The notes under the pieces were generated by a model. That model did not search any database and had not been told where the DNA came from. It saw only the letters and a list, made by a program, of their open reading frames with translations. This document shows, one piece after another, positions 2,565 to 48,142 of a stretch of DNA of 64,000 nucleotides (position 1 is the first letter of the stretch; each line of letters begins with the position of its first letter). Source of the DNA: an uncultured bacterium (lineage in GTDB: Bacteria; Bacteroidota; Rhodothermia; Rhodothermales; UBA10348); contig CALSQR010000001.1 in assembly GCA_943788505.1 (NCBI GenBank), forward strand, positions 434,001 through 498,000. The letters are read 5' to 3'. Made by a program: the position numbers and the translations under genes.

Positions 2565-2572
2565 AAAATTGG

Positions 2573-3082
2573 CTAGGATAGGGTTCTGGGTAGAATATGG
2601 TCAATGAGCCTACCTGGGAGAACCCCAACTTCTGTCCATGAGGTAGCGGGACAATCCACGACAACTAAACAAGCAGTCGGCACGTCCAGCATGAGCCCAT
2701 CAAGTAGAAACGACGCAACAATAGATGTAAATGGTTGATGACCCACAACCAATACTGAGGATACCTCCTCCTGTATTGACTGAATCATGCGTAGCACAGA
2801 TTCCGGAGCCGCTAGATACAATTCGTCGTGATAGACAATTGTAGGATCTCTCCAACCGGCTGATGTGGATACCCGATCAATCGTTTGACGCGTTCTGGCA
2901 GCAGTACTGCAGAGAACTAGCTCAGGATTCCAATCACGTCCAGCCATAAGCTGCCCGATCATATCTGCATCCCGCCGTCCTCTGCTCGCAAGTGGGCGAC
3001 CATGGTCCATATCGCCGGTCTTCCAGTCCGACTTCCCATGTCGAAGTAGGAAGATTCTCTTGAGACCATTTCCGGACATCAT
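2573..3082 (-). CDS. sixA: SixA-type phosphohistidine phosphatase (histidine phosphatase superfamily)
   Basis: The protein starts with the catalytic RHG signature (IFLLRHGKSDW, nucleophile His) and has the second active-site histidine in VLVVGHQPF. It is about 170 residues, the short SixA form without the long insert of phosphoglycerate mutases. SixA removes phosphate from phosphohistidine in phosphotransfer domains. An upstream frame reaches 3130, but the ATG at 3082 (or the adjacent one at 3079) overlaps the folB stop as TAATG and puts the RHG motif at the usual distance from the start, so it is preferred. The gene sits directly upstream of the broken histidine kinase, separated by 8 bp. 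Confidence 0.85.
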   Translation of the reverse strand: MMSGNGLKRIFLLRHGKSDWKTGDMDHGRPLASRGRRDADMIGQLMAGRDWNPELVLCSTAARTRQTIDRVSTSAGWRDPTIVYHDELYLAAPESVLRMIQSIQEEVSSVLVVGHQPFTSIVASFLLDGLMLDVPTACLVVVDCPATSWTEVGVLPGRLIDHILPRTLS

Positions 3083-3456
3083 TAAACACCCGCTCTTATT
3101 GCTTCGTAAACCGCTTCTGCACAGTCGCATGGGCCTCCAACTGGGGGATTGGCCTTTCTGACAGTTACTTCGACATGAGATGCCATGTCCTCGCGTTCCA
3201 GAATTCGATGTGCAATGAGATAAGAAAGTCTCTCGATGAGGAAAAACTTATTTCCCATGATGATCTCTTTGACCTCACTATAAACCCGTTCATAATCGAC
3301 CGTACGGGCGAGATCATCCTCGAGGGCTGCAGCTTCGAAGTCTACCTTCATCGCTATATCAACCTCGTACCGACCACCGATGCGATGCTCTTCCTGCATC
3401 ACCCCGTGATGGGCGTAAAAAACGGCGTTGGTAAGGCGAACGGTTCCGACGGACAT
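3082..3456 (-). CDS. folB: Dihydroneopterin aldolase
   Basis: A 124-residue protein of normal FolB length. It has the family start (VRLTNAVFYAHHGVMQEE), the inner strand VDIAMKVDF, a conserved region around LIERLSYLIAHRIL and the C-terminal K-x-N-P-P motif (VRKANPPVGG). FolB converts 7,8-dihydroneopterin to 6-hydroxymethyl-dihydropterin in folate synthesis and works as a cytoplasmic octamer. It overlaps the following sixA start by one base, so the two are probably cotranslated. folD at 35756 is the only other folate gene in the window. Confidence 0.93.
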   Translation of the reverse strand: MSVGTVRLTNAVFYAHHGVMQEEHRIGGRYEVDIAMKVDFEAAALEDDLARTVDYERVYSEVKEIIMGNKFFLIERLSYLIAHRILEREDMASHVEVTVRKANPPVGGPCDCAEAVYEAIRAGV

Positions 3457-3480
3457 AGCATCTCTGGGTGTTGCTAGAAA

Positions 3481-4536
3481 CTACTGCGAGGCAGACTCAA
3501 TTCCGAACTTGAAGGCTAGACCTATTTCTTCTGAGGTGGCTTCGCCTCGAGATATCCTCTGAGCAATTTCTGAGAGATAGATAGTTCCATAAAGCCCAAG
3601 AAGGATGTCGCTTCGTTTTGCATGCTCCTGTAATGTAGAAACGATGCTAGCGTTACGTAGCCCTTCAGCAACCTCGATAAATCGAGGACCGTCAGGACCA
3701 TCTTCAACTCTTGCCGGGAAGCTCCGCTCAGGTTCATATTGCCTCGTTCCGAAATGACAACCTGTACATCGGATTGGAACCATCATGTCGTCGGGTTGCT
3801 TCTGAACTCTGTCAACCAATTGCCCCTCATCGTCATAGGCAAAGAAATCCCAGAAACCATCTGATCGCTTCTGCATGATAGTCGTTTCCACGACGAAGCC
3901 GTTAGAAAAGTGCTCCCCAATGACAGCAGTTCCAACCGGATACAGGATGGGGGATTCAATTTCTTCAACCTGGTTTAGCGCACTTAACACGGCGCTTCGC
4001 TTAATGGCAACGCGGCGAGGAAATGGTGACATACTACCTTTAACATCAATAGAGAGCCATTTCTCCAAGCTAGTCCAATCTCCAAGGTTCTCTCTCCACA
4101 CTTCGATAGCCTGAGGCGCCCTTCGAGCAAAGTAATACGAGCTCATCAAAAAACTGTCCATTAAGTCCTTTGAGATTTCCTCCGCACTCAAGCCATCCCG
4201 ATACAGTTGCTGCAGGCTTGTATCTACTTCCTGCCAGAATGATGGATGCCGCAAAAACCACGAATTTTCCCGTTCTTCCAAGACACCGGCGAGTACAGGA
4301 TCTCCTCCCGTTTCACCCACATAACTGCCTACATAGAATCGCAATAACCGTTCAGGGTCACCACGTTCCAATCGGATAGGAATCGCTCCTGATATGTCTT
4401 CTGCCTGCGGGCTCGAACATCCAGCAATACATGCAATCATGACGACCCATATCAGCATACTATGTGTGGCACTGTCGACTGTGACGGTTGCAAGGCTGCG
4501 TCCTGCGACAGTAAGTCGTGTTAGTAAGGGGTTCAT
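3481..4536 (-). CDS. Lipoprotein with cytochrome P460-like domain and one CxxCH heme motif
   Basis: 351 residues. Near the N-terminus a hydrophobic stretch ends in a lipobox (IACIAGC), with the lipidated Cys at about residue 40 from the 4536 start. An internal ATG at 4458 would give a much shorter signal. The C-terminal half contains GFWDFFAYDDEG followed by IRCTGCHFG, matching the end of cytochrome P460-type domains, in which a c-type heme is bound by CxxCH. The middle of the protein is not recognised. It should sit in the periplasm on a membrane. The substrate is unknown; other P460 proteins act in detoxifying reduced nitrogen compounds, but the fit is by motif only. Confidence 0.62.
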   Translation of the reverse strand: MNPLLTRLTVAGRSLATVTVDSATHSMLIWVVMIACIAGCSSPQAEDISGAIPIRLERGDPERLLRFYVGSYVGETGGDPVLAGVLEERENSWFLRHPSFWQEVDTSLQQLYRDGLSAEEISKDLMDSFLMSSYYFARRAPQAIEVWRENLGDWTSLEKWLSIDVKGSMSPFPRRVAIKRSAVLSALNQVEEIESPILYPVGTAVIGEHFSNGFVVETTIMQKRSDGFWDFFAYDDEGQLVDRVQKQPDDMMVPIRCTGCHFGTRQYEPERSFPARVEDGPDGPRFIEVAEGLRNASIVSTLQEHAKRSDILLGLYGTIYLSEIAQRISRGEATSEEIGLAFKFGIESASQ

Positions 4537-4607
4537 ATCGAAAGCAACTGTTTGTCAGACTACGGTGACGCAAACGGCATCATGGGGTAAAACGGTTCCT
4601 TGCTAAC

Positions 4608-5582
4608 GTGAGCAATTCATTGATCATAGCAATTTCTTTGGCATGTGCAGCTATCGGGACCGGCCTTGGTTTCTTGTTGGCTCGTTATCGGCATGCTCTA
4701 TGCGTTCAATCCCTCGCTGAAAAAGAGAGGCAAATCCGACACATGCGGGTCCAGTTACATCAGGATAGCCGCCATGAATCCACTGCTCAGGGTCCAACAC
4801 TCAATCAAGAGGATTCAATACTCGCTCAGGACCCTAAGGAGGAATTGGAGCAGGCCCGTCTAGATCTACTTCTATTGCGGGAAGACAAACGCATCGAGTT
4901 GGCCCTTTTTCGAGAGGAAAACGAACAATTGCGTTCGGACCTAGATCGTTTCAATTCCGCATCTGCCCAATTTGTCGACGTCGTTCCATCTGATCATAAA
5001 GAGCCGCAAGAACCGGATGTGATTGTCGGTGCTGGATGGGTCGAAGAGCCAGAGGTAATCTCGATTGCGGCTGAAAAGGATTCAGATTCCGCCATCAAAC
5101 CGCCAAACGAGGTCATACCAGATTCTGAACCAGTGTCTGCAGAAACAGAACCTTCGGAAGAATCAACAGAATTAGCCATTCATTGGGAGCCTCCCTCTCG
5201 AAAACTCAGCCCGATTCTTGACTCACCCAACGAGAGAATAGAGGGCGACCGAATGGGTAGTGATCATACATCCACCAACCCTCTTCCTGTCTACCAGCCA
5301 CTTTCGATAATAATGAAGCATTGGGCTACACCGAACGTGATCGACTCAGGGCCAGAATCAGGTATTAGAACGGAATCAACCCTAATTCGGAGCATTGTGC
5401 AGCTTTCAGACGACGGGTTCGAGTTACTCAGCGAGTTAGGCTATGCCACGCTGGATAAACTGGCTGACCTGTCACCTAGTGAAATTCGCCGTCTCGCAGC
5501 CATATTTAGAATCAACGAGATGGACATAGATCAAGGATGGATGCCTGCGGCTAAGGCACATCGTAATAGGGAAACGTCGTGA
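4608..5582 (+). CDS. Membrane-anchored coiled-coil protein with C-terminal HhH-like motif
   Basis: 324 residues. One N-terminal membrane helix (IIAISLACAAIGTGLGFLLA) is followed by Arg, a Glu/Gln-rich coiled coil to about residue 115, then an acidic, Pro/Ser-rich linker (about 120-260). The end (LLSELGYATLDKLADLSPSEIRRLAAIF) resembles the helix-hairpin-helix-like module in which a short protein 'finds' a partner through repeated Leu and Ala; a similar C-terminus is common in Bacteroidota coiled-coil proteins and ends with an I-x-x-x-W-x-x-Q/A-A-K-like tail (WMPAAKAH). Function not known. It is transcribed divergently from the P460 lipoprotein with a 71-bp gap and converges on the sugar kinase. 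Confidence 0.6.
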   Translation: MSNSLIIAISLACAAIGTGLGFLLARYRHALCVQSLAEKERQIRHMRVQLHQDSRHESTAQGPTLNQEDSILAQDPKEELEQARLDLLLLREDKRIELALFREENEQLRSDLDRFNSASAQFVDVVPSDHKEPQEPDVIVGAGWVEEPEVISIAAEKDSDSAIKPPNEVIPDSEPVSAETEPSEESTELAIHWEPPSRKLSPILDSPNERIEGDRMGSDHTSTNPLPVYQPLSIIMKHWATPNVIDSGPESGIRTESTLIRSIVQLSDDGFELLSELGYATLDKLADLSPSEIRRLAAIFRINEMDIDQGWMPAAKAHRNRETS

Positions 5583-5619
5583 GATGTTAACGCCGTATGA
5601 TCAGCAGGTCGCCTGATCA

Positions 5620-5675
5620 GCACATCGAACCGTCAGGACCTCGAACCATCTGCACATCGAACCGTCAGGACGTCG
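5620..5675. repeat. Direct repeat of 24 bp with 32-bp period
   Basis: Copies at 5620-5643 and 5652-5675 differ at one position (both begin gcacatcgaaccgtcagga). Between them is a partial third copy (tcgaaccatct). The second copy overlaps the stop of the sugar kinase gene. Just upstream, 5599-5618 forms a short inverted pair (gatcag ... ctgatc). This small patch lies between two converging genes. Confidence 0.8.
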
Positions 5676-6600
5676 TAATCTCAGCAATCGGCATCGGGAT
5701 CGTAGTGAGGTCCCTGAAAGCATCAATTCTCTGCCCGATTTCGCTCCTTGTAAGTTCATAGAGTGCTTCGGGACCAAATTTCTCAACCGTAAACGAAGCA
5801 ATAACGCTACCGTAGACCAAGGCGTGTTTGAGCGAATCAAGATTAATTTCCTTACATCCGGATAGAAAACCAGCAAAGCCGCCCATAAACGCGTCTCCTG
5901 CGCCCGTTGGATCCTGAATGTCTTCCAAAGGAAAAGCCGGGACGGTAAATATTGAATCACCGGCGAACATCAATGCACCGTGCTCTCCCTTCTTGATGAT
6001 TAATACCTTAGGCCCCAGCTCCCGAATTCGACGTGCACAAACAATCAGGTTGGGCTCTCCTGCTAGCTCTCGGGCCTCAGAATCATTGATCACAAGGCAA
6101 TCCACGCGACCCAACAATTGTGTGAGCGAATCTGGTGTGTGTTCGATCCAGAAATTCATTGTGTCGCACAGAACTATCTCGGGAGCCGAAATCTGATCCA
6201 TCACACTCGCCTGGACGGTTGGGTCCAAGTTGCCCAGACACACTATTCTAGAATCGGTATAGGAAGCCGGTAAAACAGGATTGAAACTCGAAAGAACATT
6301 CAAGTCGGTATAGAGCGTGTCCCGATTGTTCAGGTCGTAATGATACTTTCCTCCCCAAGCGAACGTTAATTCGTCAGGTCGGCTTTCCAACCCCTCGAGG
6401 TCAATGTTTCGAGATCTCATCACCTCCACGTACTCTTCCGGGAAGTCGTGTCCAACCACTGCGACAAGCCTGACGTCGTCGCTCATGAAGCGGGAGGCCA
6501 GCGTGATATATGTGGCGCTGCCGCCCAAGGCACGATCGCGTTTACCAAAGGGTGTTTCAATGTGGTCGAAAGCGACTGTTCCTACGGCAAGTACACTCAT
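5665..6600 (-). CDS. PfkB-family carbohydrate or nucleoside kinase
   Basis: 311 residues, the typical length. The N-terminus (VLAVGTVAFDHIETPFG) and GGSATYITLA match the substrate-binding half. DPTGAGDAFMGGF near residue 235 is the PfkB signature 2, containing the catalytic Asp and the anion hole. ATP-dependent phosphorylation of a sugar or nucleoside is expected; the substrate is not identifiable. Adenosine-kinase- or ribokinase-like members are both possible. The start at 6600 is the first ATG and aligns with the family start. The gene stands alone, divergent from the TPR protein across about 200 bp in which no further gene is seen. Confidence 0.87.
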   Translation of the reverse strand: MSVLAVGTVAFDHIETPFGKRDRALGGSATYITLASRFMSDDVRLVAVVGHDFPEEYVEVMRSRNIDLEGLESRPDELTFAWGGKYHYDLNNRDTLYTDLNVLSSFNPVLPASYTDSRIVCLGNLDPTVQASVMDQISAPEIVLCDTMNFWIEHTPDSLTQLLGRVDCLVINDSEARELAGEPNLIVCARRIRELGPKVLIIKKGEHGALMFAGDSIFTVPAFPLEDIQDPTGAGDAFMGGFAGFLSGCKEINLDSLKHALVYGSVIASFTVEKFGPEALYELTRSEIGQRIDAFRDLTTIPMPIAEITTS

Positions 6601-6799
6601 GATTACGGGGTCGTTCTGAGAAATTTACGGCCTGAAGATACGTCCGCTCATCTCCATTGTCATCCAATTACTTCCTCTAGCGGACTACGACTGGAAACGT
6701 AGCGTCCGGACACGGGTTTAGACGCTCGATTGACACCAACTTCTTCCGATGTGCCAACCACCTGCGCCTCGGATTCACTGTTTTCTCAGATTGCCTCGC

Positions 6800-9700
6800 A
6801 TGAACGTATTCGGAAGGTCCCGCACTCGCGATAGGCTAGTTTCTGTTCCGCTGACGCTTTCCGCGCTATGCTTTTCGGTCCTATTTCTCCTTAGCACGTT
6901 GCCTGTTATGGCACAAATGGTGGACCGCAGTGGTGTTGAGTGGTATGCCGATGGGCTACATGAGTTTAATAACAATCTCTTTTCCGACGCAGCCGCTACA
7001 TTCCGAGAGTTTCGATCAGCATACCCTGACCACCCGCGGGCTCCGGATGCAATGTATCATGAAGCGGAGTCATACCTCGCGCTGGGTCGTGAGTATGATG
7101 CGATCCGGCTCCTTAGTGCCTTTGAAAGACGCTACCCACGGCATCCTTATGCATTTGGATCTAGACTCTCTTTAGGAAAGTATTTTTTCGAAACGGGTGA
7201 TTACGACCGAGCTATTTTGACCTTAGAACAGGTCATGGAGCGGACTCCGACACCTCAACAAGCAGCCCTCGCTCTATACTGGATGGGCGAATCAGCCCAC
7301 CGCCTTCGACGTGAAGACGAGGCTATCTCATATTTCGAGGAAGTAGTAAGGGACTACCCGCAGACCGAAACCGCGCCGCGCGCCGCATATGCCATTGCAT
7401 ACAATCAGGTAGAATTAGGCCGCTACGACGCTGCAGCGGCCTCTTTTGAACGTCTTGACCGTCAGTTTGCCGGTTCGTCTTGGGCTAACAACATGGGCTT
7501 AGCATTAGCTGAAGTCTATTACGAAATCAGTGAATATGGGCGTGCCGCTGCGGAGATCGAACGTCGGCTTCCCAACATGCAGGGTGAGGCTCGCGACCGA
7601 GCCATTTTTCTACTAGCCGAGTCCTATAACCAAACCCGCAATAGTGATGGTGCGATTGTCAACTATCGCCACTTCACGGAAGGCGATACCATTTCACCCT
7701 ATTTCGAACGGGCGTTGTATGGTCTTGCGTGGAACTACCATCATGAAGGGGCCTGGCAATGGGCTGCAGACAACTTTTCAATGGTCAGGGACAGTGGTCA
7801 TGAAAGTCTTGCGGGCGAGTCCGCTTATTACGTTGGCACTAATCTCAGACTGGCCGAGGATGCTGCAGGATCGATAAGTGCTTATCAGCAGTTTCTTTCC
7901 AACTTCAAAGGACATCGTCTCGCTGACCACGGGTGGTATGAACTGGGCATCGTGTTTTACGAAGAGCGTCAATGGCAGAGCGCCCGAGATGCATTCCGGC
8001 AATTAGTGAACGGCTACCCCTCGTCAGAGCTTCGGGGAGATGGACTCAAGCATCTTGGCAATACCGAGATTGCTCTAGGTAATTTTGAAGCAGCTCACGA
8101 AGCGTTTGACCAAGCAATTGACGAAGGAACCGTATCTGTCGAACTCCTTGAAGAGATCATCTTTCAAAAGGCATGGTTGAATTACCGAAATCGGGAATAC
8201 AACGCATCTGCTGTGGAGTTTATGGAGCTGTTTTCGTCGAACCCCTCCTCTGCAGGTGCATCCGAGACGCTATTTTGGGCCGCTGAGAGTAATTTCCAGA
8301 TAGGCCAGTTCGCCATCGCTGAGCAGCTTTTTACACGCTATTTGCGTGATTACCCAGGAGCTCGGCATGCTGATGCAGCTCAATATGCATTGGGCTGGAC
8401 GTATTTCAAGCAGGGCAACTACGGAGCCGCTATTCCACGCTTCGAAGCATTTTTAGACGCTTATCGTGATGAGACTGGCACCGTGCCCTACCGCTCCGAC
8501 GCTAGGCTTCGATTAGCTGACAGCTACTTTGCTTTAAAGCGCTATCCAGAAGCAGTGCGAGTTTATGGCCGAATGGCAGCTAATGGAGACGACTATTCGA
8601 TGTACCAGATCGGGCAGGCTTACTCCAACTCCGGAGATGCATTTGAGGCCTCATCAACATTCCGACAACTACTGGAAGCCTTTCCCTTGAGCGAATGGCG
8701 CGAAGAGGCTCAATATTCGCTTGGATACCTGTTTTTTCTCAATCAGGAATACGAGCAGGCTATAGTTGAGTATCAGCACCTCATTGATTCCTACCCACTG
8801 GATCCTCTTGCGGCCAAAGCCCAGTACGGAAAGGGAGATGCACGGTTTAATGGCGGGGATATAAACGCGGCGGTTAAGGAATACGAACGTGTGTTGACCA
8901 ACTACCCGACGAGTCCATTTGTCGCAGACGCAGCTGCCGGAATTCAGTTTGCTTTGTTAGCCACTGGGCAGGAAGACCGCGCTGATTCGGTTGTTGATTC
9001 GCTAGCTCTTGTCCTGCAGGGTACACCGGCTGCTGAGCAACTTCGCTTTCGTCAGGCAGAGGCCAAGTATCAAGCCGGATTGATTGATCCGTCGATGGCC
9101 GATTTCATGCGATTCCTAGAGTTTGCCCAGGACGAAGATCTAAGATCCGAAACCCATTTTTACTTGGCTCAGGCGTTTGAGCAAAAAAACGAATCGACTT
9201 TTGCCCAACAGCACTACCGGACCATTGTGGACGATCATCCAACTAGTGCACGCTCCGCTGACGCGGCTGGTAACCTGGGTCATTTAGTGCTCGGATCTGG
9301 CAATGCCGACGAGGCCGAGCGCCTATTTAGGCTCATGGAGGAGCGATCAAACGGTGAAGCGAGGACTATTTCTCTTGCTCGATATGGACTCTCTTTAGCA
9401 TTGAGTGCACAAGGACGTGACCTAGAGGCTGAATCCCTGTTACAAGAAGCAGTTGAGGTGGCTCCCATGAGCGAGGCATCTTGGCCAGCTTACCTTGGTC
9501 TAGCGCGAATTGCAGAGCAGAGGCAAGAGCTTAGCGAGGCGGAACGGCTTTATGACGTAGTGACTTCTCGATCCCGCGATGAAACAGGTGCCGAGGCGCT
9601 CTTCTTGCTTGGTGAATTACAGCTCGAAAGCGGACGCGTTAATCAAGGGATTGAAACCCATTCTAGAATGCAGGCCCTTTTCGCTGGTTATCCGCAATGG

Positions 9701-35755: not shown

Positions 35756-36631
35756 ATGGCTCACTTAATAGACGGCAAAGCTCTTTCTGCCCAGATCCGC
35801 GAAGAAGTCAAACAGGCGGTGACGCAGCGTACTTCTGAAGGTCATCGTGCGCCATACCTCGCCGTTGTACTCGTGGGTGAGGACCCTGCTTCCGCTTCCT
35901 ACGTCAGAGGTAAAGCTAAGGCATCGGCTGAAGTTGGAATTGGAAGTGATACCATGACCTACCCGGACGATATCGGCGAAAACGAGCTCCTTGACATTGT
36001 TAAGGGGCTAAACGAAGACCCTGAAGTAGATGGCATTTTGGTTCAATTGCCGCTACCTAAGCACATTGATGATCGAAAAGTGATTAACGCGATCGATCCA
36101 AAGAAAGATGTTGATTGCTTCCACCCCGAATCTGTTGGAAACCTCGTGATCGGTCTAGACGGCTTTCAACCAGCCACGCCAGCGGGAATTGTTGAGATGC
36201 TGCGACGCTCTAACATCGAAACGAGTGGCAAGCACTGCGTGATTATCGGACGGTCCAACATCGTCGGTAAACCACTTGCCAACCTGATGCTCAAGAAAGG
36301 GATGGATTCTACTGTCACGGTTTGCCATAGCCGAACGAAAGACCTCCCAAGCATAGCCCGGCAAGCTGACATCCTTGTCGCTGCCATAGGGTGGGCTAAT
36401 TTCGTCACAGCTGACATGGTAAAACCTGGCGCAGTGGTCATCGATGTTGGCATCAACCGCGTGGATGACGAAACTCGTGAGCGTGGATACCGCCTTGTCG
36501 GAGATGTTGATTTTGAAGCGGTGGAACCCATCGCCAGCCACATCACTCCCGTCCCAGGAGGCGTTGGACCGATGACAATTGCAGTGCTTCTACAGAATAC
36601 ATTGAAGGCAGCAGTAGATCACTCCGCATAA
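35756..36631 (+). CDS. folD: Bifunctional methylenetetrahydrofolate dehydrogenase/cyclohydrolase
   Basis: 291 residues. Typical features are SASYVRGKAKASAEVGI (catalytic Lys and Tyr), DGILVQLPLPKHI, VDCFHP, PATPAGIVEML, IGRSNIVGKPLA (NADP-binding), VCHSRTKDL and PVPGGVGPMTIA. It interconverts methylene-, methenyl- and formyl-THF, giving the one-carbon donor for PurN and PurH. No operon partner. About 190 bp upstream hold only the tRNA-Gly promoter and no clear promoter for folD itself. Confidence 0.96.
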   Translation: MAHLIDGKALSAQIREEVKQAVTQRTSEGHRAPYLAVVLVGEDPASASYVRGKAKASAEVGIGSDTMTYPDDIGENELLDIVKGLNEDPEVDGILVQLPLPKHIDDRKVINAIDPKKDVDCFHPESVGNLVIGLDGFQPATPAGIVEMLRRSNIETSGKHCVIIGRSNIVGKPLANLMLKKGMDSTVTVCHSRTKDLPSIARQADILVAAIGWANFVTADMVKPGAVVIDVGINRVDDETRERGYRLVGDVDFEAVEPIASHITPVPGGVGPMTIAVLLQNTLKAAVDHSA

Positions 36632-36840: not shown

Positions 36841-38595
36841 ATGCAGTTTCCTACCAGGCCTCCCGCCGCTTCGCACATCAGCCGTCGTGCTGCAAGCGTT
36901 CTCTTACTGCTCATTTTTTCGGCAACCTTGCTCGCCCCTTTCGTTAGCGCCCAATCCCTTGGAGATTTCCAGACACGAGGTAGTGGTAATTGGAATAAGA
37001 GCAACACCTGGGAAGAATGGAATGGGTCTCCTTGGATCAATAATAAAGTGGTTCCTGACTTTAGCAGTGGTCAAATCACGATCCGTTTGGGACACAGTGT
37101 GAATGGGAATGCAATTGGTGACTACGATCAGGTCGTCATTGAGGCAGGTGCCACACTGTCTCTTAGTAAGTCATTCACCATCCTCGACGGCCCAGGAACT
37201 GACTTACATGTCTTTGGCACGCTTGTCGTCGGCTCTAATGTGATTTTGCAAGGGGCAGCAACGGCCATTTCTGAGCCTAATTCAGCGCTAGACATCGGAC
37301 GTTTAGGCAGTTTTGCGGTACTGGGTACATCTTCTGTACAGTTTTTAAGTCCAGTTACGATAGCATCTACCAGTGACTTCATCGTGGGGGACGCTGCGAC
37401 GGCCACTCTCGCATCAGGCTCAATATTGACCAATGGTACTCAAGGAGTAATAGACGTATCCATCAGCGGGTCTCTTTCATTTGCAGGTTCAACGGTCATC
37501 AATGAAGGGCTGATAACTACGGGCGGTAGTGGCACCATTTCGTTTGACGCAACGTCTGAATACGTCCATGCGCAAGATGGAGGCAGCTTTCCACCAGCAT
37601 CATCCACAACCTGGGCTACAGGCTCAACCGCATCAATTACGGGTGCTGATAGAAATACAACCTCCGGCTTGGATGCTTCTTTTTCCAATTTTGTTTGGAA
37701 TAGTCCTGCGCAGTCCAAGGAAATTGATCTTCAAGGTGTGTTGATCTCCGTTTCTGGCGACCTAACGATTTCCAGCACTGGAAGCGGCTCAATCATGTTC
37801 AGTGCCGCTGGAACAGCACTAAATATCGGTGGAAACTACACGCAAGACGGTGGCAACGTCGTTTTTCAGGATACCGGAAGTGCTGCCATGACTGTTGGCG
37901 GCGATTTTCAACTCAACGTTGGCACCTTCAATTTAGCTGCTACCGGAGGCACACCTGTCCTCGACGTTAACGGAGACCTACTCATTGCTGGAGCGCTCGA
38001 AAACACGGGATCAGGTACGGCAACCATCTCGCTTTCTTCAGCATCGACCCAAATAATCGACGTTTCCGGCTCGCTTTCGGGGTTGATTAACCTTGAGCTT
38101 AATGGATCTGGCGGGATACTGCTCGCCAACGACCTGACGTTACCAGGTAGCCTCACAGAAACCATTGGCGGGCTCGATCTGAACGGTTTCAATTTGACAC
38201 TTTCCGGGAGCTTGACCCTTGCCTCTCTCCTTCAGAATGCAGGTTTACTCACCTTCAACGGTCCCGACCCATCTACCCTATCAGCTCCTTCACCTTTTCA
38301 GGTAGAGGAAATGGTCATCGACAAAGCACCGTCCACCCTCACGCTGCTCTCAGACTTGGAGATCGGCACGAGCCTGATTATCCGAAGCGGGGATTTCGAC
38401 GTGGACGGGTTTAACGTGATCTTAGCACCTAGAGCAACGTTTTATAACGCCAGCGGAGCACCATTTCCTGGTACTGTTACAATCGAGCGCTCCTGGACGG
38501 ACTCGAGCGATGGCTGGCTCAGTTTGCTACGATTTCTTTCGACATCATTCCCGTCTACGCTAGAGTCCGACCGAAGGCAGCCAATGCACCGCTAA
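36841..38595 (+). CDS. Secreted surface protein head, Bacteroidota type (truncated by a frame change)
   Basis: 584 codons with signal peptide (VLLLLIFSATLLAPFVSA) and the usual opening QSLGDFQTRGSGNWNKSNTWEEWNG of T9SS-type surface proteins (landmarks RGSGNWNKSNTWE). Then come many short beta-helix-like repeats rich in Ser, Gly, Thr and Asn (for example ISGSLSFAGST). FPGTVTIERSWTDSSDGW is where related proteins continue with 'RLLSSPV...'; here the frame goes on with about 20 unrelated residues to a stop. From 38448 another frame is open and continues into the next gene. So the tail (and any sorting signal) is lost. The frame change lies near 38510-38525. See the finding on this junction. Confidence 0.65.
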   Translation: MQFPTRPPAASHISRRAASVLLLLIFSATLLAPFVSAQSLGDFQTRGSGNWNKSNTWEEWNGSPWINNKVVPDFSSGQITIRLGHSVNGNAIGDYDQVVIEAGATLSLSKSFTILDGPGTDLHVFGTLVVGSNVILQGAATAISEPNSALDIGRLGSFAVLGTSSVQFLSPVTIASTSDFIVGDAATATLASGSILTNGTQGVIDVSISGSLSFAGSTVINEGLITTGGSGTISFDATSEYVHAQDGGSFPPASSTTWATGSTASITGADRNTTSGLDASFSNFVWNSPAQSKEIDLQGVLISVSGDLTISSTGSGSIMFSAAGTALNIGGNYTQDGGNVVFQDTGSAAMTVGGDFQLNVGTFNLAATGGTPVLDVNGDLLIAGALENTGSGTATISLSSASTQIIDVSGSLSGLINLELNGSGGILLANDLTLPGSLTETIGGLDLNGFNLTLSGSLTLASLLQNAGLLTFNGPDPSTLSAPSPFQVEEMVIDKAPSTLTLLSDLEIGTSLIIRSGDFDVDGFNVILAPRATFYNASGAPFPGTVTIERSWTDSSDGWLSLLRFLSTSFPSTLESDRRQPMHR

Positions 38596-38666
38596 GTCTT
38601 GCACTTGCAACTGTAGGAGACGAAGGTGGAGCGATTCCCCAGGCTACGATTACCGCAAACGGCAAA

Positions 38667-40019
38667 ATGCTGGGCGGTTCGGTCTTTGTTTCCGCGACAC
38701 TAGCCGAAATGCCACGTCAAAAGTTCTACGGAGAAGACGCTAACCTCAAGGCTACGTACGTTTCCGAAGATGTTATTGTCCAGCTCGGCGATCACAGTCA
38801 GGCGATTTCCCCCTTAACACTCACCGGTGAAAAAGGCCTCGGAGCCTCTGCTGATGTTTCCACTGGCAATTGGAATATCAAAGCTACTGCACAGCGCGCA
38901 CGATACATTTTTCCGGTTCAAGAACGCCTAGCTTTTTCGGTAGGATATGCGACATCTTCTACCTCAACAGCTAGCGTTAACCTCATGCACCGCAATGGTT
39001 ATTACCAGGGCAGCATCATGTCTCTTCGCACGTTGTCTAGCCCATTCGGCCCAACGTCAAAACTGGACTTGGAATGTGGTATGGATAATGCAGAGGCCCT
39101 TAGGGACCCATCATGCTCCATGCAGTTCTCCAATAGCTCTCGTCGCTTATCCTATCGTTTAGGAGCTCAGCGCGGGTCTACTTCGTTTCCAGGGGCGATT
39201 GCAGGAGCGACGCAGTTTTCAGAGTATTTATCGTTTCGCCTTTCACGATCGATTCGTTTAGACAATAACCTGAATGTGACCAAACGATCATTAGGCGGTG
39301 GTTTTGAACGCTCCAATTTGTTTGCCAAGGTTGGAGTTACGTGGTCAACACGCGTTTTAGGCGGATCACTCTATGTAAGCGCGCACGGTGTTCATACCCA
39401 GAATGCGTATACAACCCTAGCCTCCTCTTCCGATAGAACGGATAACACCTTACGCTCTTCGCTGGGTTATCATCTGCGCCGCATGGGCTTAACAGTTTCT
39501 GTTGAACAAGGTACTTCACGTTCTTCAAGCGAGGGAACGTCTGGTGGATTATCTAGAATTAAGTCAAACTACCGTTACAGCCCAACTCAAAGCTGGTCTA
39601 TTAACGGTTCATGGGAGATGTCCAGCGGTAATCTGTCAGCAATGGCTCTTAAACAGACGCAACACCAGATTGGCTTAGGGTCGACTTTAGCGTTAGCCAA
39701 AGGATGGACGGCCAGTGCTACAGCGTTTAGAAGCACTGTCGAAGCTACCATACGCCAGCAGTATGCTTCCCTACGAGGCAGTATAACACGTACATTCAAA
39801 ACTGGAAGGACTCTCTCGGCCAGGATTCAGATGAATCACTCAGCTGGACGGCAGGAGATCAGAGCCTCGGATTATCGCCTTGCCTTCACTACTCCCCTGG
39901 CTTCGCCTTTTAACCGAGCTCAATCTGAAGCTAATATTCTTCGAGGGCGTCTCATCGATCAGGATACGGGTGCCCCCATTACGGGTATTATGATGTTTTC
40001 GGCAACGACCTCGCTATGA
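38667..40019 (+). CDS. Outer-membrane beta-barrel domain, reading frame continuous with 38448 upstream
   Basis: The first ATG is at 38667, but coding continues upstream without it (AQFATISFDIIPVYARV ... NAPLSLALATVGD), so the true start is not in this frame. The body is an alternating-strand barrel (IVQLGDHSQAISPLTLTGEKGLG, ATAQRARYIF, LAFSVGYATS). VQLGDHSQAISPLTLTGEKGLG has a shape seen in a Bacteroidota barrel family of unknown function. The end is GRLIDQDTGAPITGIMMF, the beginning of a carboxypeptidase-regulatory-like domain, then out of frame. ATGA overlap with the next gene. Confidence 0.6.
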   Translation: MLGGSVFVSATLAEMPRQKFYGEDANLKATYVSEDVIVQLGDHSQAISPLTLTGEKGLGASADVSTGNWNIKATAQRARYIFPVQERLAFSVGYATSSTSTASVNLMHRNGYYQGSIMSLRTLSSPFGPTSKLDLECGMDNAEALRDPSCSMQFSNSSRRLSYRLGAQRGSTSFPGAIAGATQFSEYLSFRLSRSIRLDNNLNVTKRSLGGGFERSNLFAKVGVTWSTRVLGGSLYVSAHGVHTQNAYTTLASSSDRTDNTLRSSLGYHLRRMGLTVSVEQGTSRSSSEGTSGGLSRIKSNYRYSPTQSWSINGSWEMSSGNLSAMALKQTQHQIGLGSTLALAKGWTASATAFRSTVEATIRQQYASLRGSITRTFKTGRTLSARIQMNHSAGRQEIRASDYRLAFTTPLASPFNRAQSEANILRGRLIDQDTGAPITGIMMFSATTSL

Positions 40020-41794
40020 CTGATGATAAAGGTCGTTTCATATTTGCTAGAAATCCTGAGAATACATCCTTCCTGCGAGTCGACCAGCAGACTCTCGGAT
40101 ACGATCGTATTCCTGAAATGTCTATGCCGATTCAGATTGGTCCTACCGACTGGACAGGAAGCGAGCTTATCATTCCTATTTCGAAGGCATCCCGCGTTTC
40201 AGGTATTCTGGAGTCCTTTAGAACGTCTGCATCTGCCGACATTCTCATGGGTGTCACGTCAGATTCTCTCGTTCTGGAAAAAGGAATCGGTGGTGCTGTA
40301 CTACAAATAGAAAACGATCGTATTCGCTTGCGCACAAGAACCTCCCCGTCAGGACGATTCGAGTTTACGCAGCTACCTCCAGGGACCTACGAGGTAAGTA
40401 TACTAAAGGCTAAGACCAATGAATACCAACGACTTGAACTCACTTCTATTAAAGTGATACTAGAGGAGGGAGCGGATAAAGAATTGGAGTTTAGAATTAT
40501 CCCTGCTCGTAAAAAGATCCGGATGATCTCAACATCAAGCCTGTTTCTAAATGGCAGTTCCTCTGGACTTTCAAGTGAATCAACGACTCCTTCTCCAGTT
40601 TCGCTGAACGAATCTGCTTCAATTGAGAAGCAGGTCGCAATCGAGGACCAAAAAGCATCCTCCCCAGCAGCGCCTGTATCACCTATTTCAAACGCGAAAA
40701 AGGATACTAGCCACCAAACGCCTGTCGAATCCGCTCCTTCAACGGTAGCTGTTGTATCCGCAACGTCTAGCGTTCAGGAAGTAAGCTCTCTATATGAGAG
40801 CGACACACCCAAAAGCAAGGACACTATTGAAAGACCTAAGTGGTTTCAGTTGCTTAAGCAGGCAGCGCTTGAAGTATCGAAGCATAATGATGCATCACAG
40901 CGTCTATCAGAGGCGGCGGGACCGGCCCCTTTCATTCCTTACTATATCCATCGGATGACACCAGAAAGTGGTAGCAATCGAGCCATGCTCAATGGACTAT
41001 TGTTCGTTCTCTGCTTGCTGTTTCTATTGGTCGATATTGATCTGTTGGTCCGTTTTGCGGTGACCCGCAAAAAGAACGGTATTCGTTCTCTGAAGGACCC
41101 CGTATGGTTCGCACTTTGGCGGCAGCTCATCATCTACTTGTTCGCAATCACGGTTGCAACCGTGTCATGGGGATTACTTGCAGGAATCTCTGTTTCCCTA
41201 GCACTTAGTGGTATTTCAGTGGCAATTGAGACGCGAGATACCTATCGAGCGATCTGGAATATTGCTCAACTCTACGGACGTGGTGTAAAGGTAGATACTT
41301 GGGTTGTCTGGCGTGATAGTGCTGTATGTATCAAAGGTATTGGACTCGAAGCTGTACAAGCCTCAACACTTGAAGGACAACGAATTGAGATCCCAACGCA
41401 TTTGACACACCTGCTTATTGGGCAGATTTTTTCTACTGAAGATGCTCAGGATAGTCAGTTCACTTTCGAAATTTCTCGTATGGCCAATCTGAGTCACGTG
41501 AGGTCGTTGATCCAAGATTCACTTCGGCCACTTTCACCTTCTGGGCTCAACAGCAACGCTAGCATTGAGTTCGAAGACATCGACGCCCAGCGTACGCTTG
41601 TTTGTATTACTCTTCTTTCGATGCCATCTCATCCAGCTCATGTTCTGGCACCTGGCCTCTGTGAGAAATCATTGAACGCAGCCGGAATACCTGGTATTTC
41701 AACCAAGAGAGATGGGCCAATAAGTGGCTCCGCACATCGGGGTGGTAAAGCCTATGGACCCTTGAAGCTTATTAAAGGAAACAGAGCCGTTTAA
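40016..41794 (+). CDS. Regulatory-like domain, Ser/Thr linker, and MscS-like membrane domain
   Basis: 592 codons. Residues 1-45 (MTDDKGRFIFARNPENTSFL) complete the domain cut off in the preceding frame. A second such domain is at about 105-160 (SPSGRFEFTQLPPGTYEVSI). A Ser/Thr/Pro-rich linker follows (about 180-290), then two or three membrane helices (LLFVLCLLFLLVDIDLLV at about 325; IIYLFAITVATVSWGLLAGI at about 370) and a C-terminal region with the MscS beta-domain look (GVKVDTWVVWRDSAV ... IGLEAVQASTLEGQRIEIPTH). The MscS match is by pattern only. Joining an outer-membrane-type domain with an inner-membrane channel-like one is odd. Confidence 0.5.
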   Translation: MTDDKGRFIFARNPENTSFLRVDQQTLGYDRIPEMSMPIQIGPTDWTGSELIIPISKASRVSGILESFRTSASADILMGVTSDSLVLEKGIGGAVLQIENDRIRLRTRTSPSGRFEFTQLPPGTYEVSILKAKTNEYQRLELTSIKVILEEGADKELEFRIIPARKKIRMISTSSLFLNGSSSGLSSESTTPSPVSLNESASIEKQVAIEDQKASSPAAPVSPISNAKKDTSHQTPVESAPSTVAVVSATSSVQEVSSLYESDTPKSKDTIERPKWFQLLKQAALEVSKHNDASQRLSEAAGPAPFIPYYIHRMTPESGSNRAMLNGLLFVLCLLFLLVDIDLLVRFAVTRKKNGIRSLKDPVWFALWRQLIIYLFAITVATVSWGLLAGISVSLALSGISVAIETRDTYRAIWNIAQLYGRGVKVDTWVVWRDSAVCIKGIGLEAVQASTLEGQRIEIPTHLTHLLIGQIFSTEDAQDSQFTFEISRMANLSHVRSLIQDSLRPLSPSGLNSNASIEFEDIDAQRTLVCITLLSMPSHPAHVLAPGLCEKSLNAAGIPGISTKRDGPISGSAHRGGKAYGPLKLIKGNRAV

Positions 41795-41900: not shown

Positions 41901-42356
41901 TCAATCGAAGGTTGCTCCACCATGGTCAGTGCCATTGACCGTGTAGCGATAGGAGATCTGCGCTGATTTCTCCAATATTCTAGACACTGAGCAATACTTG
42001 CCCAGACTCAGTTCGATGGCACGTTTTACCCGGGCAGGATCAAGATTCCCTTCCAGTTTGAAGTGTAGTTCGATGGTTTCGTAGATCGATGGAGATACTC
42101 CATCTGGCTTGAACCCGTCCACTTCTACCGTCATCGATGTAATGTCCTGTCGCCCCTTCTTCAAAATGGAGACCACATCTACGCTACTGCACCCACCAAT
42201 AGCCATGACAACAAGCTGCATCGGACCGACACCATTGCCCTTTCCATCTTCGTAGGCCGTGGCATCATCGATATCCACAAATTGGCCGGCTGTGTTAAAG
42301 GCTCTGAAATGAAAATCAGCTTCCTGTTTTTCTAGTTTGGCGATTACATGTCCCAT
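41901..42356 (-). CDS. OsmC-family protein
   Basis: About 151 residues from the ATG at 42356 (the frame is open to 42398). The N-terminal strands (MGHVIAKLEKQEADFHFRAF), GPMQLVVMAIGGCSSVDVVSIL (redox Cys, about 60) and KYCSVSRILEKSAQISYRY (second Cys) match the OsmC/Ohr fold, with the two cysteines that reduce organic hydroperoxides. It is probably a thiol peroxidase, though the simple OsmC group may have other substrates. It stands alone, converging on the MscS-like gene; the 106-bp gap shows no clear terminator. Confidence 0.85.
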   Translation of the reverse strand: MGHVIAKLEKQEADFHFRAFNTAGQFVDIDDATAYEDGKGNGVGPMQLVVMAIGGCSSVDVVSILKKGRQDITSMTVEVDGFKPDGVSPSIYETIELHFKLEGNLDPARVKRAIELSLGKYCSVSRILEKSAQISYRYTVNGTDHGGATFD

Positions 42357-42453
42357 GAAGATGCGATTAGTTGGTAGACGACAGCGTCCAGACTGCACTT
42401 AAATCGAATTAATGGCCCTCGGACGAATACTGTATGTTCTGGTCTGGGCCAAT

Positions 42454-44227: not shown

Positions 44228-44776
44228 CTAGTTGATCGACTGGGAATCTTCCTCGTCAATCTCGATGCCGAGACGAAGGGCAATATCCACATTGATGTTG
44301 ATCACCGTTTCCGTGTTCACGTATAGAAGCGCGGGCGAACGCATGACGATGTCCAATCCTTGTTCCTGGGCGATTGCATCGATCGCATCCTGGACACTCT
44401 GCAAAAGGGGAGCCATCAGTTGATCCTGACGGTCGGCTAGTTCCTGATCTTTTGCAGCTGCAGATGTCTGAATCTCGTTCTGAAGCTGTGCAAGCTCATT
44501 TTCTCGTTCAGCTTGACGCTCTGCCGTAAGAAGAGGCTGCTGCTTCTGGTAGCGATCGACTCTTTCCTGAAAATCTTCAGCCAATGCCTGAAGCGCTTCC
44601 TGGCTCGTACGGTATTCAACCGCCATCTGCTGCTGCACGCCTTGATACTCAGGCATATAGGTAATGATAATCTCCGGATCGGCATAACCGACCTTAAGCG
44701 CCTGAGCCGCTGTATCCTGATGGAACGTACCCACGAGGAGGAGTGCAAGGAGAATACTAAATAAGGACTTTTTCAT
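44228..44776 (-). CDS. OmpH/Skp-family periplasmic chaperone (second copy)
   Basis: 182 residues with a signal peptide (LFSILLALLLVGTF ... AAQA). The mature part begins LKVGYADPEIIITYMPEYQGVQQQM and goes on as a long helical hairpin rich in Gln, Glu and Arg (about 55-130), the tentacles of Skp. The end (VVNINVDIALRLGIEID-like) closes the core. Skp/OmpH binds unfolded outer-membrane proteins for BamA. It follows the first copy (44866-45417) in the same direction with a gap of about 90 bp, and shares its layout. Probably an old duplication. Confidence 0.88.
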   Translation of the reverse strand: MKKSLFSILLALLLVGTFHQDTAAQALKVGYADPEIIITYMPEYQGVQQQMAVEYRTSQEALQALAEDFQERVDRYQKQQPLLTAERQAERENELAQLQNEIQTSAAAKDQELADRQDQLMAPLLQSVQDAIDAIAQEQGLDIVMRSPALLYVNTETVININVDIALRLGIEIDEEDSQSIN

Positions 44777-44865
44777 TTGTTGTTCTGAACGTCCGGTATC
44801 TGAGACCGGATGAATTGATGGAATGACTCAGGAGAGCCAGCCGGGTTCATGGTTGTAAAGGGGTT

Positions 44866-45417
44866 CTACCTTTGTTCACTATCAACGTCTATGCCAAGTT
44901 CTTGGAGCACCTCGATTGAAACGTCGTACTGTTCGCGTTTGAACATGAATAGGAACTCGCCGCTCGAATCAAAAATGTAATCATAACCTTCTGAATCAGC
45001 GACCTCGTTTATAGCCTGGAGAATCTTTTCTTGTACAGGCCGCATGAGCTGTTCTTGCTGAAGAAATATATCTCCTTCTGGACCAAAATACTTAACCCGT
45101 AAACGCTCAAGCGCCTCCTCTGCCTGAAGAATTTCCTGACGTCGTCGCTGACGCTCTTCATTGGTGTAAAGTAACTCACGGGCTTGATATTCGCGGAATT
45201 GGCCATCCAAATCCTCTTTCGTCTGATCAAGCTCATCTTGCCATGTTTGTGCAATCCGGTCGAGCTGCTGCTGTATCGTTGCATACTCAGGCATCTGCTC
45301 AAGCACATAGTCTGAATTTACATACCCAATTTTCTGCTGTGCTTGCGCGGGCGAAGCTAAGAGAAACAGGATCACTGCCAGGCTAAAAGCCCCTACGATT
45401 TGATTGGTTCGTTTCAT
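44866..45417 (-). CDS. OmpH/Skp-family periplasmic chaperone (first copy)
   Basis: About 183 residues from an ATG at 45417 that begins a typical signal (MKRTNQIVGAFSLAVILFLL ... AQA); the frame is open to 45492. Mature start QQKIGYVNSDYVLEQMPEYATIQQQ, then a helical hairpin (about 55-120), then EGYDYIFDSSGEFLFMFKREQYDVSIEVLQELGID at the end. It is 82 bp downstream of bamA, in the classical bamA-skp order. It binds unfolded barrels in the periplasm. Alternative ATG at 45420 is adjacent. Confidence 0.9.
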   Translation of the reverse strand: MKRTNQIVGAFSLAVILFLLASPAQAQQKIGYVNSDYVLEQMPEYATIQQQLDRIAQTWQDELDQTKEDLDGQFREYQARELLYTNEERQRRRQEILQAEEALERLRVKYFGPEGDIFLQQEQLMRPVQEKILQAINEVADSEGYDYIFDSSGEFLFMFKREQYDVSIEVLQELGIDVDSEQR

Positions 45418-45498
45418 CATGGCCGAAAGACGATTGACCGTCATTGGAGGAAGGAAGGTGTCTCGGAAACTGTACTTAAAAGTGGACTCCAATCAGGA

Positions 45499-47973
45499 TT
45501 ACTGTCCGAAACCCTGACCTAGACTGAACTGAAAGGTCCATTTCTTGGATCCGTCATGCTTGTTATTAATCGGCTCGAACTCGTCGTAATTGTATCCATA
45601 AGCCATTTCTACCATCCCAAGAATTGGAAGGAAGAATCGCATCCCAAAGCCTGCAGAACGATACAAGTCAGTTGGGTTGTAGGACGAGAACGAATTCCAC
45701 GCGTTCGCGGCATCTATAAACAGGTACGGTGCAGCCTGCAACTGCTCAGATTGAATAGCAATCCATCGTAGTTCTGCTGAGTACTTATTTAACAAACGCC
45801 CGCCAAATGGATCATTCTCGGTGCTACGAGGACCAAGTGCACCCAAAGGATACCCACGCATATAAACGATGTCCTTGCCAAAATAGCTATAGAATCCTTG
45901 CGTTTCGAAAGGTGAGCCACCAACAATAAACCGTTCGAACTGGACTTCATCCCCAGTCAAAGACCCTATATATCCGTAATCAGCACTAAACCCGAATGCA
46001 ATTTTGGGAGCAACCGGTGTATTCCAGGAACTGCTCATCCGCCATTTGTGGTACTGAATTAAGTTGCCTAACGGTGGAGCAATCTCAAGAGAGAGAAGGA
46101 ATTTTGACCCAGACGCAGGAAATAACGGGTGGCTTAGGTTATTGCGAAGCAACGTCTGCTTGAATGTGACCTCTTGGCTCACTCCGTTCGGAAGGGTTGA
46201 AATCCAGTCCTTGTTGTTATAGTACTGGAATCCAACTTGGGTCGACGTGCTAAACCACGGATCTGGCCATTTCAATCGTTGCTCGTAGAATACTCGCTGA
46301 GAAAACGTTAGGAGCTGGCCACTATCTGAATCGATATATGTGTACCCTGAAATCCTCGAGAAGGACGTGGAAAATCCGAGCTGACGGGGTCTTCCTTTGA
46401 ACCACGGCTCAGTAAAGGAGAGTGAATACTGTTGGTACCGACGCCCGTTTGTCTGAATTCCAACTGAGAAGCGTTGTCCATCACCGGCGGGAAGCGGCTT
46501 CCACTCCTCACCTTTAAGGAAATTCTGAGCCGAGAAGTTATTGAAGTTGAAGCGCAGCATCAGGATGAGGCCAAATCGCCCCCAAGTACCTGAAAGTTCT
46601 AGCTGATCCGTTCCCGTTTCCTCGAGGACATAGGACAGGTCCACTGTTTTGCTTTCTTCACGAACATCCACGCCTGGACCACCTGCAAGCGACTCCTGCG
46701 TGAAGTAGTTCAATTGCATCAGGCGACGAATGGATTCCTGGATCTGCGTCCTACTGAACCTATCGCCTGGGATTGTTCTCAGTTCGCGCCTAACGACATG
46801 GTCCTTTGTCTTCGTGTTTCCTGCGATCGACACCGTACCGTACTCGTATACATCTCCTTCAAAGATATCGAAGACAAAATCCAAGCTGTCTTGATCAACC
46901 GTAATCTTGGGCTGCACATTGAAGCGCATGTGCCCAGAATTATAGTAGAGGCTTGAGACATCGTTATTCTTGCCAACTCCGTATAGATTCTCAGTCAACT
47001 TACTGGAGTTATAGGCATCACCAACGAAGAAGCCCAAGCGTTCCGTTAGCTGAGCATCAGAGAACAGCGTGTTTCCTTCCCAATCTATATTGCGAATATG
47101 ATAGAGCGGGCCTTCGCGGACCTCGATTTCTACTACCATCGATGGCTTGTCCAAGTCTTGACCAACGATGTAGACAGAATCGCTTAGAACTTCGGCGTCG
47201 TAATAGCCCTTTTCGTTATACCGGTCCGTTACGCGCGCCATGTCCTTTTCGTACTCGGCACGGTCCAACTTTCCGCTTCGCCAGAAACGCCAACCACCCT
47301 TGGGCTTTGTTTCCATTGCTTTGACAATCGCAGCATCATCAAGACCTTCATTTCCATTGACGATAACCTCCTTGACCTTCACTTTTGGGCCTCTGGCCAC
47401 ATTAAAGGTGAGAGACTGCGTGTTGTCTTCGTGCTCTTCTCGCTGAACATCAATCGCTGCTAGCGGGAAGCCTTTTTCTGCATAGAATTGCTCAATAATC
47501 TGAATACTGCGAGCAATACTGTTTTCGTGAACCGGTCCTCGAGCAATCAATGGGACCTCTTTTCTCAAATCTTTGGCCTGGCTTTTTTTGATCCCTTCAA
47601 ACTCATAGGCCCTGAGCTTAGGCACCTCCCGAACCTTAATGACTAGATACAGGCCTGTACCAACTCGTCGTTCTTCCACAATCTGAACATCTTCGTATGT
47701 ACGCAGGCGATAAATCGCCCGGATAGCATCTCCTAGGGCCGGATCACCAGGGAGGGTCATCTTCTGACCGATTCTCAGACGTGATGTCTGTTGGACGAAG
47801 CTATTGGAATATTCGTCGGTCGTTCCCTCAACGGAGATTCCGAGAATTTCCACGATTTCCGGTGCCACACCAGGAATTCCAGCCTGCGCCACCGATCCAT
47901 TCCGGTTTTGAGCATCAGCAGTGCCGATACCCGCAAGGAGGATAGCTATTAGTAATAGGGCTCTAGGGCGCAT
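45499..47973 (-). CDS. bamA: Outer-membrane protein assembly factor BamA
   Basis: About 824 residues from an ATG at 47973, chosen because it opens a signal peptide (RALLLIAILLAGIGTADAQ); the frame is open to 48066. Five POTRA domains can be followed (for example VPKLRAYEFEGIKKS, VKEVIVNGNEGLDDAAIV, YHIRNIDWEGNTLFSDAQL, YGTVSIAGNTKTKDHVVRREL). Then comes the Omp85 barrel, with the hallmark YSLSFTEPWFKGRP and MRGYPLGALGPR (the VRGF-like loop-6 motif), and a C-terminal barrel end FQFSLGQGFGQ. It is essential for inserting beta-barrels. It precedes two ompH genes. Confidence 0.96.
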   Translation of the reverse strand: MRPRALLLIAILLAGIGTADAQNRNGSVAQAGIPGVAPEIVEILGISVEGTTDEYSNSFVQQTSRLRIGQKMTLPGDPALGDAIRAIYRLRTYEDVQIVEERRVGTGLYLVIKVREVPKLRAYEFEGIKKSQAKDLRKEVPLIARGPVHENSIARSIQIIEQFYAEKGFPLAAIDVQREEHEDNTQSLTFNVARGPKVKVKEVIVNGNEGLDDAAIVKAMETKPKGGWRFWRSGKLDRAEYEKDMARVTDRYNEKGYYDAEVLSDSVYIVGQDLDKPSMVVEIEVREGPLYHIRNIDWEGNTLFSDAQLTERLGFFVGDAYNSSKLTENLYGVGKNNDVSSLYYNSGHMRFNVQPKITVDQDSLDFVFDIFEGDVYEYGTVSIAGNTKTKDHVVRRELRTIPGDRFSRTQIQESIRRLMQLNYFTQESLAGGPGVDVREESKTVDLSYVLEETGTDQLELSGTWGRFGLILMLRFNFNNFSAQNFLKGEEWKPLPAGDGQRFSVGIQTNGRRYQQYSLSFTEPWFKGRPRQLGFSTSFSRISGYTYIDSDSGQLLTFSQRVFYEQRLKWPDPWFSTSTQVGFQYYNNKDWISTLPNGVSQEVTFKQTLLRNNLSHPLFPASGSKFLLSLEIAPPLGNLIQYHKWRMSSSWNTPVAPKIAFGFSADYGYIGSLTGDEVQFERFIVGGSPFETQGFYSYFGKDIVYMRGYPLGALGPRSTENDPFGGRLLNKYSAELRWIAIQSEQLQAAPYLFIDAANAWNSFSSYNPTDLYRSAGFGMRFFLPILGMVEMAYGYNYDEFEPINNKHDGSKKWTFQFSLGQGFGQ

Positions 47974-48142
47974 GTAGGGGTCTTTCTCTTTTCCTTCAGG
48001 ATCTTCATCACATAGAAGCGGATGAACGGCCAGCGTCCTGCAGGGGTTTCCAATTGAGCGAGGCATTCCGGCGTACGGCAGGAACGCGCTACGAAACTAG
48101 TTATTGTCTGGACGTCTGATTGCGTCTTTCAGTAAAGCCTTA

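Follow-up and report, generated by a model that had tools for sequence, protein, structure and literature searches.

A barrel protein gene with a predicted MscS-like C-terminal domain in the Rhodothermales, and its remnant in an uncultured bacterium

Among described systems, the chaperone-usher systems, and especially those of the CS1 type (CooC), resemble the locus analyzed here in that a large barrel is followed by a beta-sandwich domain, and in that the barrel gene comes after genes for a secreted chaperone-like protein of about 280 aa and for small secreted proteins. However, the barrel of this locus lacks the usher family domain PF00577, more strands are predicted for it (about 26 versus 24, in a model of moderate confidence), and its chaperone-like protein is unrelated by profile to known chaperones. 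The MscS family (E. coli MscS, PDB 2OAU/6RLD; PF00924) shares with the C-terminus of the encoded protein a predicted topology of three helices followed by a beta and an alpha/beta domain, with the third helix (TM3) and both these domains aligning end to end. Here, in contrast, the MscS-like domain is fused behind an outer-membrane-type barrel, and its pore helix is altered at the positions of A102, A106, A110 and G113. A third likeness, a link between an outer-membrane pore and the inner membrane, is to GspB/OutB, the scaffolding protein of type 2 secretion, which ties the pore to both the inner membrane and peptidoglycan (PMC9239104). GspB/OutB is a separate protein outside the pore chain, whereas the MscS-like tail described here sits in the barrel chain itself. 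To our knowledge, GspB/OutB is not MscS-like. Searches of the open PMC literature returned no usher-MscS proteins, no LysM-ended ushers and no chain with both a barrel and inner-membrane helices, and the joining of a barrel to an MscS-like domain in a single protein was not found described there.

The open frame in the window and the intact gene in relatives

The window, by which we mean the whole 64-kb stretch of DNA analyzed, contains at 40016-41794 (+) one open frame of 592 aa. As the first-pass annotation of this DNA had noted, a CarboxypepD_reg-type domain, a Ser/Thr-rich linker and an MscS-like part do share this frame (Table 1), and the barrel that it placed upstream is indeed encoded just before, by an ORF at 38448-40019 (+) in a different frame. 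The CarboxypepD_reg profile PF13620 scores 31.6 bits against the window ORF, just below its cut-off of 32.3, which the intact relatives exceed. The linker is 30% Ser and Thr, compared with 15% elsewhere in the ORF, and is poorly conserved (alignment A1). As the loop between the first two membrane helices holds seven K/R against one D/E, TM1 is predicted to enter the cytoplasm with its N-terminus outside, and hydropathy together with this charge bias points to an inner-membrane location for the C-terminus.

Table 1. Features of the barrel locus and its borders, in window coordinates.
Feature	Coordinates	Strand	Basis or remark
folD-like flanking gene	35756..36631	+	Left border; same neighbour in L016-L018 and genus mates; FolD name rests on sequence and conservation
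5' half of secreted beta-solenoid gene	36841..38517	+	Signal peptide and about 560 aa; tblastn, L016 aa 7-585 of 1038
Deletion junction	38514..38523		Solenoid (frame 1) joined out of frame to barrel (frame 0)
Barrel region, without signal peptide or Ig-like domains	38518..40005	+	46-49% identity to intact relatives
Second frame break (frame 0 to 2)	39998..40008		Inside first CarboxypepD_reg-like domain, beside short T run
CarboxypepD_reg-like beta-sandwich domain, second	40283..40528	+	PF13620, residues 90-140, E 2e-7
Ser/Thr-rich low-complexity linker	40532..40915	+	Residues 173-300
TM1 of MscS-like domain	40991..41056	+	Residues 326-347, hydropathy; helix 57-85 in relative's model
TM2	41114..41179	+	Residues 367-388, hydropathy
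TM3, pore-type helix	41171..41272	+	Residues 386-419; hydropathy and alignment to MscS
MscS-like beta domain	41285..41434	+	hhalign and PDB profile search; strands 163-193 in relative's model
MscS-like alpha/beta domain	41456..41695	+	Alignment to MscS up to residue 268; model elements 211-289
OsmC-like flanking gene	41901..42398	-	Right border; same in relatives and genus mates

In six related Rhodothermales genomes, all of one family (G005, G011, G016, G017, G020 and G026), the gene is intact as a single stop-free ORF of 1246-1344 codons. It encodes, in order, a signal peptide, two Ig-like regions (with weak NPCBM_assoc, CARDB or FixG_C-like matches), the barrel, two CarboxypepD_reg-type domains, the linker and the MscS-like domain. 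The arrangement read from the window by the first-pass annotation therefore exists uninterrupted elsewhere, and the opposite possibility that it raised, of a channel part always encoded alone, does not hold: no complete gene for the MscS-like domain by itself is present in 114 genomes of the order or in 394 of the phylum, and an alignment of eight orthologous C-termini reveals no conserved start codon ahead of TM1. In these samples the MscS-like tail is confined to a single family: nine of the 114 order genomes carry it, and the 394 phylum genomes add no further group. The barrel family is broader, with 26 of the 114 order genomes and 17 of the 394 sampled from the phylum.

Upstream of the intact gene lie, in this order, genes for a beta-solenoid of about 1000 aa, three small secreted proteins and the chaperone-like protein. 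The beta-solenoid of L016 carries a T9SS sorting tail (Por_Secre_tail, PF18962, E 7e-9). In the relatives checked, the whole cluster is bordered by folD and an osmC-like gene. No family match was found for the chaperone-like and small secreted proteins, and neither these nor the barrel protein gave a significant PDB profile match; hits to integrin alpha-X (E 0.03) and to ciliary Ig-repeat chains were dismissed as noise from beta structure.

A model of the Ig-barrel-CarboxypepD part of a relative has about 26 strands in residues 233-670, at moderate confidence (five sequences, mean pLDDT 63.6, pTM 0.39). Its best VIA-align match is MtrB (Z 19.1, 418 residues, 4.9 Å), behind which follow other outer-membrane barrels, including the PapC usher (Z 14.5). 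On the strength of this model the barrel is predicted to insert in the outer membrane. PF00577 has no match at E ≤ 1 in 15 barrel sequences, and one distant member of the barrel family has a sub-threshold match to CooC_C (25.5 bits versus 29). Together, the gene order, the barrel fold and this single CooC_C match suggest an usher-like role for the barrel protein.

Relation of the C-terminus to MscS

The MscS family profile PF00924 finds nothing in the window ORF alone at E ≤ 5, and an NCBIfam scan is likewise empty; the relative L016 reaches 16.4 bits, below the cut-off of 20.2, and at E ≤ 1 four of the eight orthologues are matched (best 9.2e-5). The relation becomes apparent with a family profile, which was needed to show it: built from the eight orthologous C-termini, this profile matches in the PDB MscS-type chains only, among them a YnaI-MscS chimera (E 5e-10) and E. 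coli MscS (E about 1e-8), over TM3, the beta domain and the alpha/beta domain from end to end. The MscS similarity proposed by the first-pass annotation is borne out in this way. Comparison with ordinary MscS proteins of the same genome by hhalign gives a probability of 95 and E 3e-8; a whole-genome search identified six other MscS-type genes of normal size in the window genome.

A model of the C-terminus of a relative shows three helices followed by strands and helices in MscS order, and matches MscS by both Foldseek (E 4e-11) and VIA-align (Z about 10.9). Because the confidence of this model is moderate (five sequences, mean pLDDT 65.1, pTM 0.44), these matches serve only to back up the profile result. 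Judged by these comparisons, the window ORF ends in a divergent MscS-like domain with three predicted membrane helices, a beta domain and an alpha/beta domain.

The canonical MscS pore helix, with small residues at 98-108 and the hinge glycine G113, is absent from all eight copies: A102 is replaced by Leu, A106 by Ser and A110 by Glu in every copy, and G113 by D, E, Q, S or T. The constriction residues L105 and L109 remain aliphatic in the family, and the window TM3 has I/I at these positions, E at A110 and D at G113. The invariant Ile-Glu pair (MscS 109-110) and Ser 106, found in 8/8 copies, make up a family-specific pore signature immediately below the constriction.

Between L020 and L021, dN/dS is 0.29 for the MscS part, 0.52 for the linker and 0.10 for the barrel, rough figures given that synonymous sites are near saturation. 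As far as these estimates go, purifying selection acts on the MscS part in intact genes.

Exchangeable C-termini and the role of the MscS-like part

The C-termini of 34 barrel sequences fall into several types: 12 end in LysM, six in SPOR, two in a single TM helix, seven in an MscS-like domain (the window copy included), and seven have no such addition. In a tree of the barrel, the MscS type forms one clade (support 98/96) with neighbours that end in SPOR or nothing; by this topology, the MscS-like version arose once. The LysM- and SPOR-ended sisters share the Ig-barrel-CarboxypepD_reg core and, in the cases examined, also the chaperone-like neighbour, but terminate in wall-binding domains, and the linker is shorter in most LysM cases. 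Where the linker could be measured, it covers 96-116 residues up to TM1 in the MscS type versus 40-74 up to LysM (nine of ten cases), a difference that fits a need to reach the inner membrane rather than the wall. Since sister proteins end in LysM, SPOR, a TM helix or nothing, the C-terminus has the appearance of an exchangeable envelope anchor.

Further members of the barrel family were seen in other contexts. A second, paralogous LysM-ended barrel gene is found elsewhere in G005, G016, G017, G020 and G026 (L038, L040, L041, L091 and L092), and in L040 and L041 it lies between response-regulator-like and sigma-factor-like genes. In L086 (G045), an ORF of 1117 aa (1826-5176, -) contains a stretch resembling the N-lobe of a Ser/Thr kinase, YRILDKAGTRGVGEVYTAFDAEDG, before a single C-terminal TM helix; the Pfam kinase family has no match in this stretch at E ≤ 0.05.

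The explanation towards which we lean, if only slightly, is that the MscS-like part serves mainly as the inner-membrane anchor of an usher-like outer-membrane platform. The intact gene would give rise to one exported protein, whose barrel and periplasmic Ig-like and CarboxypepD_reg-type domains would form an assembly or secretion platform for the adjoining small secreted proteins, assisted by the neighbouring chaperone-like protein. The linker, of about 100 residues, would cross the cell wall, and the MscS-derived domain would be embedded in the inner membrane, its beta and alpha/beta parts projecting into the cytoplasm, in place of the wall-binding LysM or SPOR domains of the sister proteins. 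It is the presence of those domains at the same position in relatives that favours anchoring as the probable function.

Several points weigh against this explanation. Both structure models are of moderate confidence, and family matches are lacking for the barrel (PF00577) as well as for the chaperone-like and small proteins. We know of no single-chain protein with a beta barrel as well as inner-membrane helices, which makes biogenesis of a chain running between two membranes a difficulty, and the chain may undergo cleavage. MscS folds assemble into heptamers, and a heptamer would tie seven barrels together. The retention under purifying selection of the whole cytoplasmic MscS-type part also exceeds the needs of a plain anchor. 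An anchor derived from MscS may keep some channel property.

The first-pass annotation had gone further, suggesting that one protein reaching from the surface to an inner-membrane channel domain may sense envelope strain across the periplasm. We consider it unlikely that, in a single polypeptide inserted in both membranes, load borne by the surface assembly gates or otherwise regulates an MscS-type inner-membrane channel. The same low standing goes to the intact protein as a genuine mechanosensitive channel whose sensor lies in the outer membrane, in which strain between the two membranes, or a pull on a surface fibre once assembled, would be passed by the linker to TM1 and open the pore. All three MscS parts are retained, the constriction positions L105 and L109 are aliphatic, the domain is under apparent purifying selection, and the model predicts a pore helix continuous with the beta domain; however, the substitutions of the pore helix, with an invariant Glu at A110, Leu at A102 and the loss of G113 in 8/8 copies, argue against a standard channel, sister proteins bear wall-binding domains instead, and the window genome still has its six ordinary MscS-type proteins despite the loss of this system.

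Another possibility, which we rate lower still, is that the chain is cut in the linker into separate barrel and MscS-like proteins, and the fusion merely co-ordinates their expression. A long, low-complexity and fast-evolving linker would suit such processing, but the lack of any complete lone MscS-like gene among the 114 order and 394 phylum genomes speaks against it, and a LysM or SPOR domain released from that position would serve no purpose.

If the MscS-like part does act mainly as an anchor, a channel fold would have been turned into a structural tether, or coupled with one. The barrel family offers a natural series of one barrel with different attachments, to the wall through LysM or SPOR, to the inner membrane through a single helix or the MscS-like domain, or with none, so that the anchoring of outer-membrane assembly platforms becomes testable by tail swaps.

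Decay of the gene in the window

The first-pass annotation supposed that repair of a frameshift would yield the complete protein. Breaks in the frame do exist, but there are two rather than one, and the first marks the join left by a deletion instead of a point frameshift. An ORF that reads open over 36841-38595, in a third frame relative to the barrel and window ORFs, holds the solenoid, of which the C-terminal half and T9SS sorting tail are missing. Homology to the relative stops for the solenoid at 38517, and begins for the barrel at 38514-38523 with aa 237 of 1278; about 4.6 kb of L016 (roughly 3062-7674) are missing between the two. With this deletion went the second half of the solenoid and the genes for the small and chaperone-like proteins, and the barrel protein was left without its export signal and Ig domains. 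At the second break, homology changes frame at 39998, within the first CarboxypepD_reg-like domain, which starts at the 3' end of the window barrel region. The chaperone-like gene was not found anywhere in the window genome by a search that succeeds in seven of seven intact-barrel genomes tested; G000, G010 and G024, whose copies are truncated, all lack it. A single uninterrupted protein is thus the case in the six relatives but not in the window, where repairing one frameshift would not restore it, because the export signal, Ig domains, chaperone-like gene and small genes are gone. Programmed frameshifting was considered and is rejected on the ground that the first break results from a deletion.

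Loss is also seen in related genomes. G010 retains only about the last 107 residues, and in four genus mates nothing of the gene is present between folD and osmC. In G024 (L017, 3156-6023, +), an independent in-frame deletion leaves 956 aa in which half of the beta-solenoid leads into the MscS-like domain, with the barrel absent. The motif GWLSLLR is identical at the window and G024 junctions, a coincidence, as the parent segments differ. By comparison with these genomes, the gene in the window has decayed and its 3' part survives as the window ORF, a remnant representing one stage of repeated loss.

It is very improbable that the frame breaks are sequencing or assembly errors in a gene intact in the organism: the second involves one base beside a T run and both ORFs are still long and open, but the first is a 4.6 kb loss including a chaperone-like gene found nowhere else in the genome, the neighbouring conserved genes are intact, and sister genomes have independent deletions of their own (G024, G010) or have lost the locus altogether. 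We give as little credence to the fused solenoid-barrel-channel arrangement of the window being a new functional gene rather than a remnant, for although G024 has its in-frame solenoid-MscS-like fusion and G000 joins these parts too, the window junction is out of frame and followed by a second break, G010 has only its short terminal piece and the genus mates have none.

The folD-osmC site carries other genes as well. In the genus mates (L071, L072, L073 and L074) it is occupied by an alpha-amylase/pullulanase-like gene, which is shortened in L071 and L074; G005 has this gene together with the whole cluster, whereas the window lacks it at this site. Just beyond panB and surE, at 44228-48066 (-), the window holds two adjoining OmpH/Skp-like genes beside a BamA-like gene, a group of outer-membrane assembly genes near the barrel cluster that is kept in the relatives examined.
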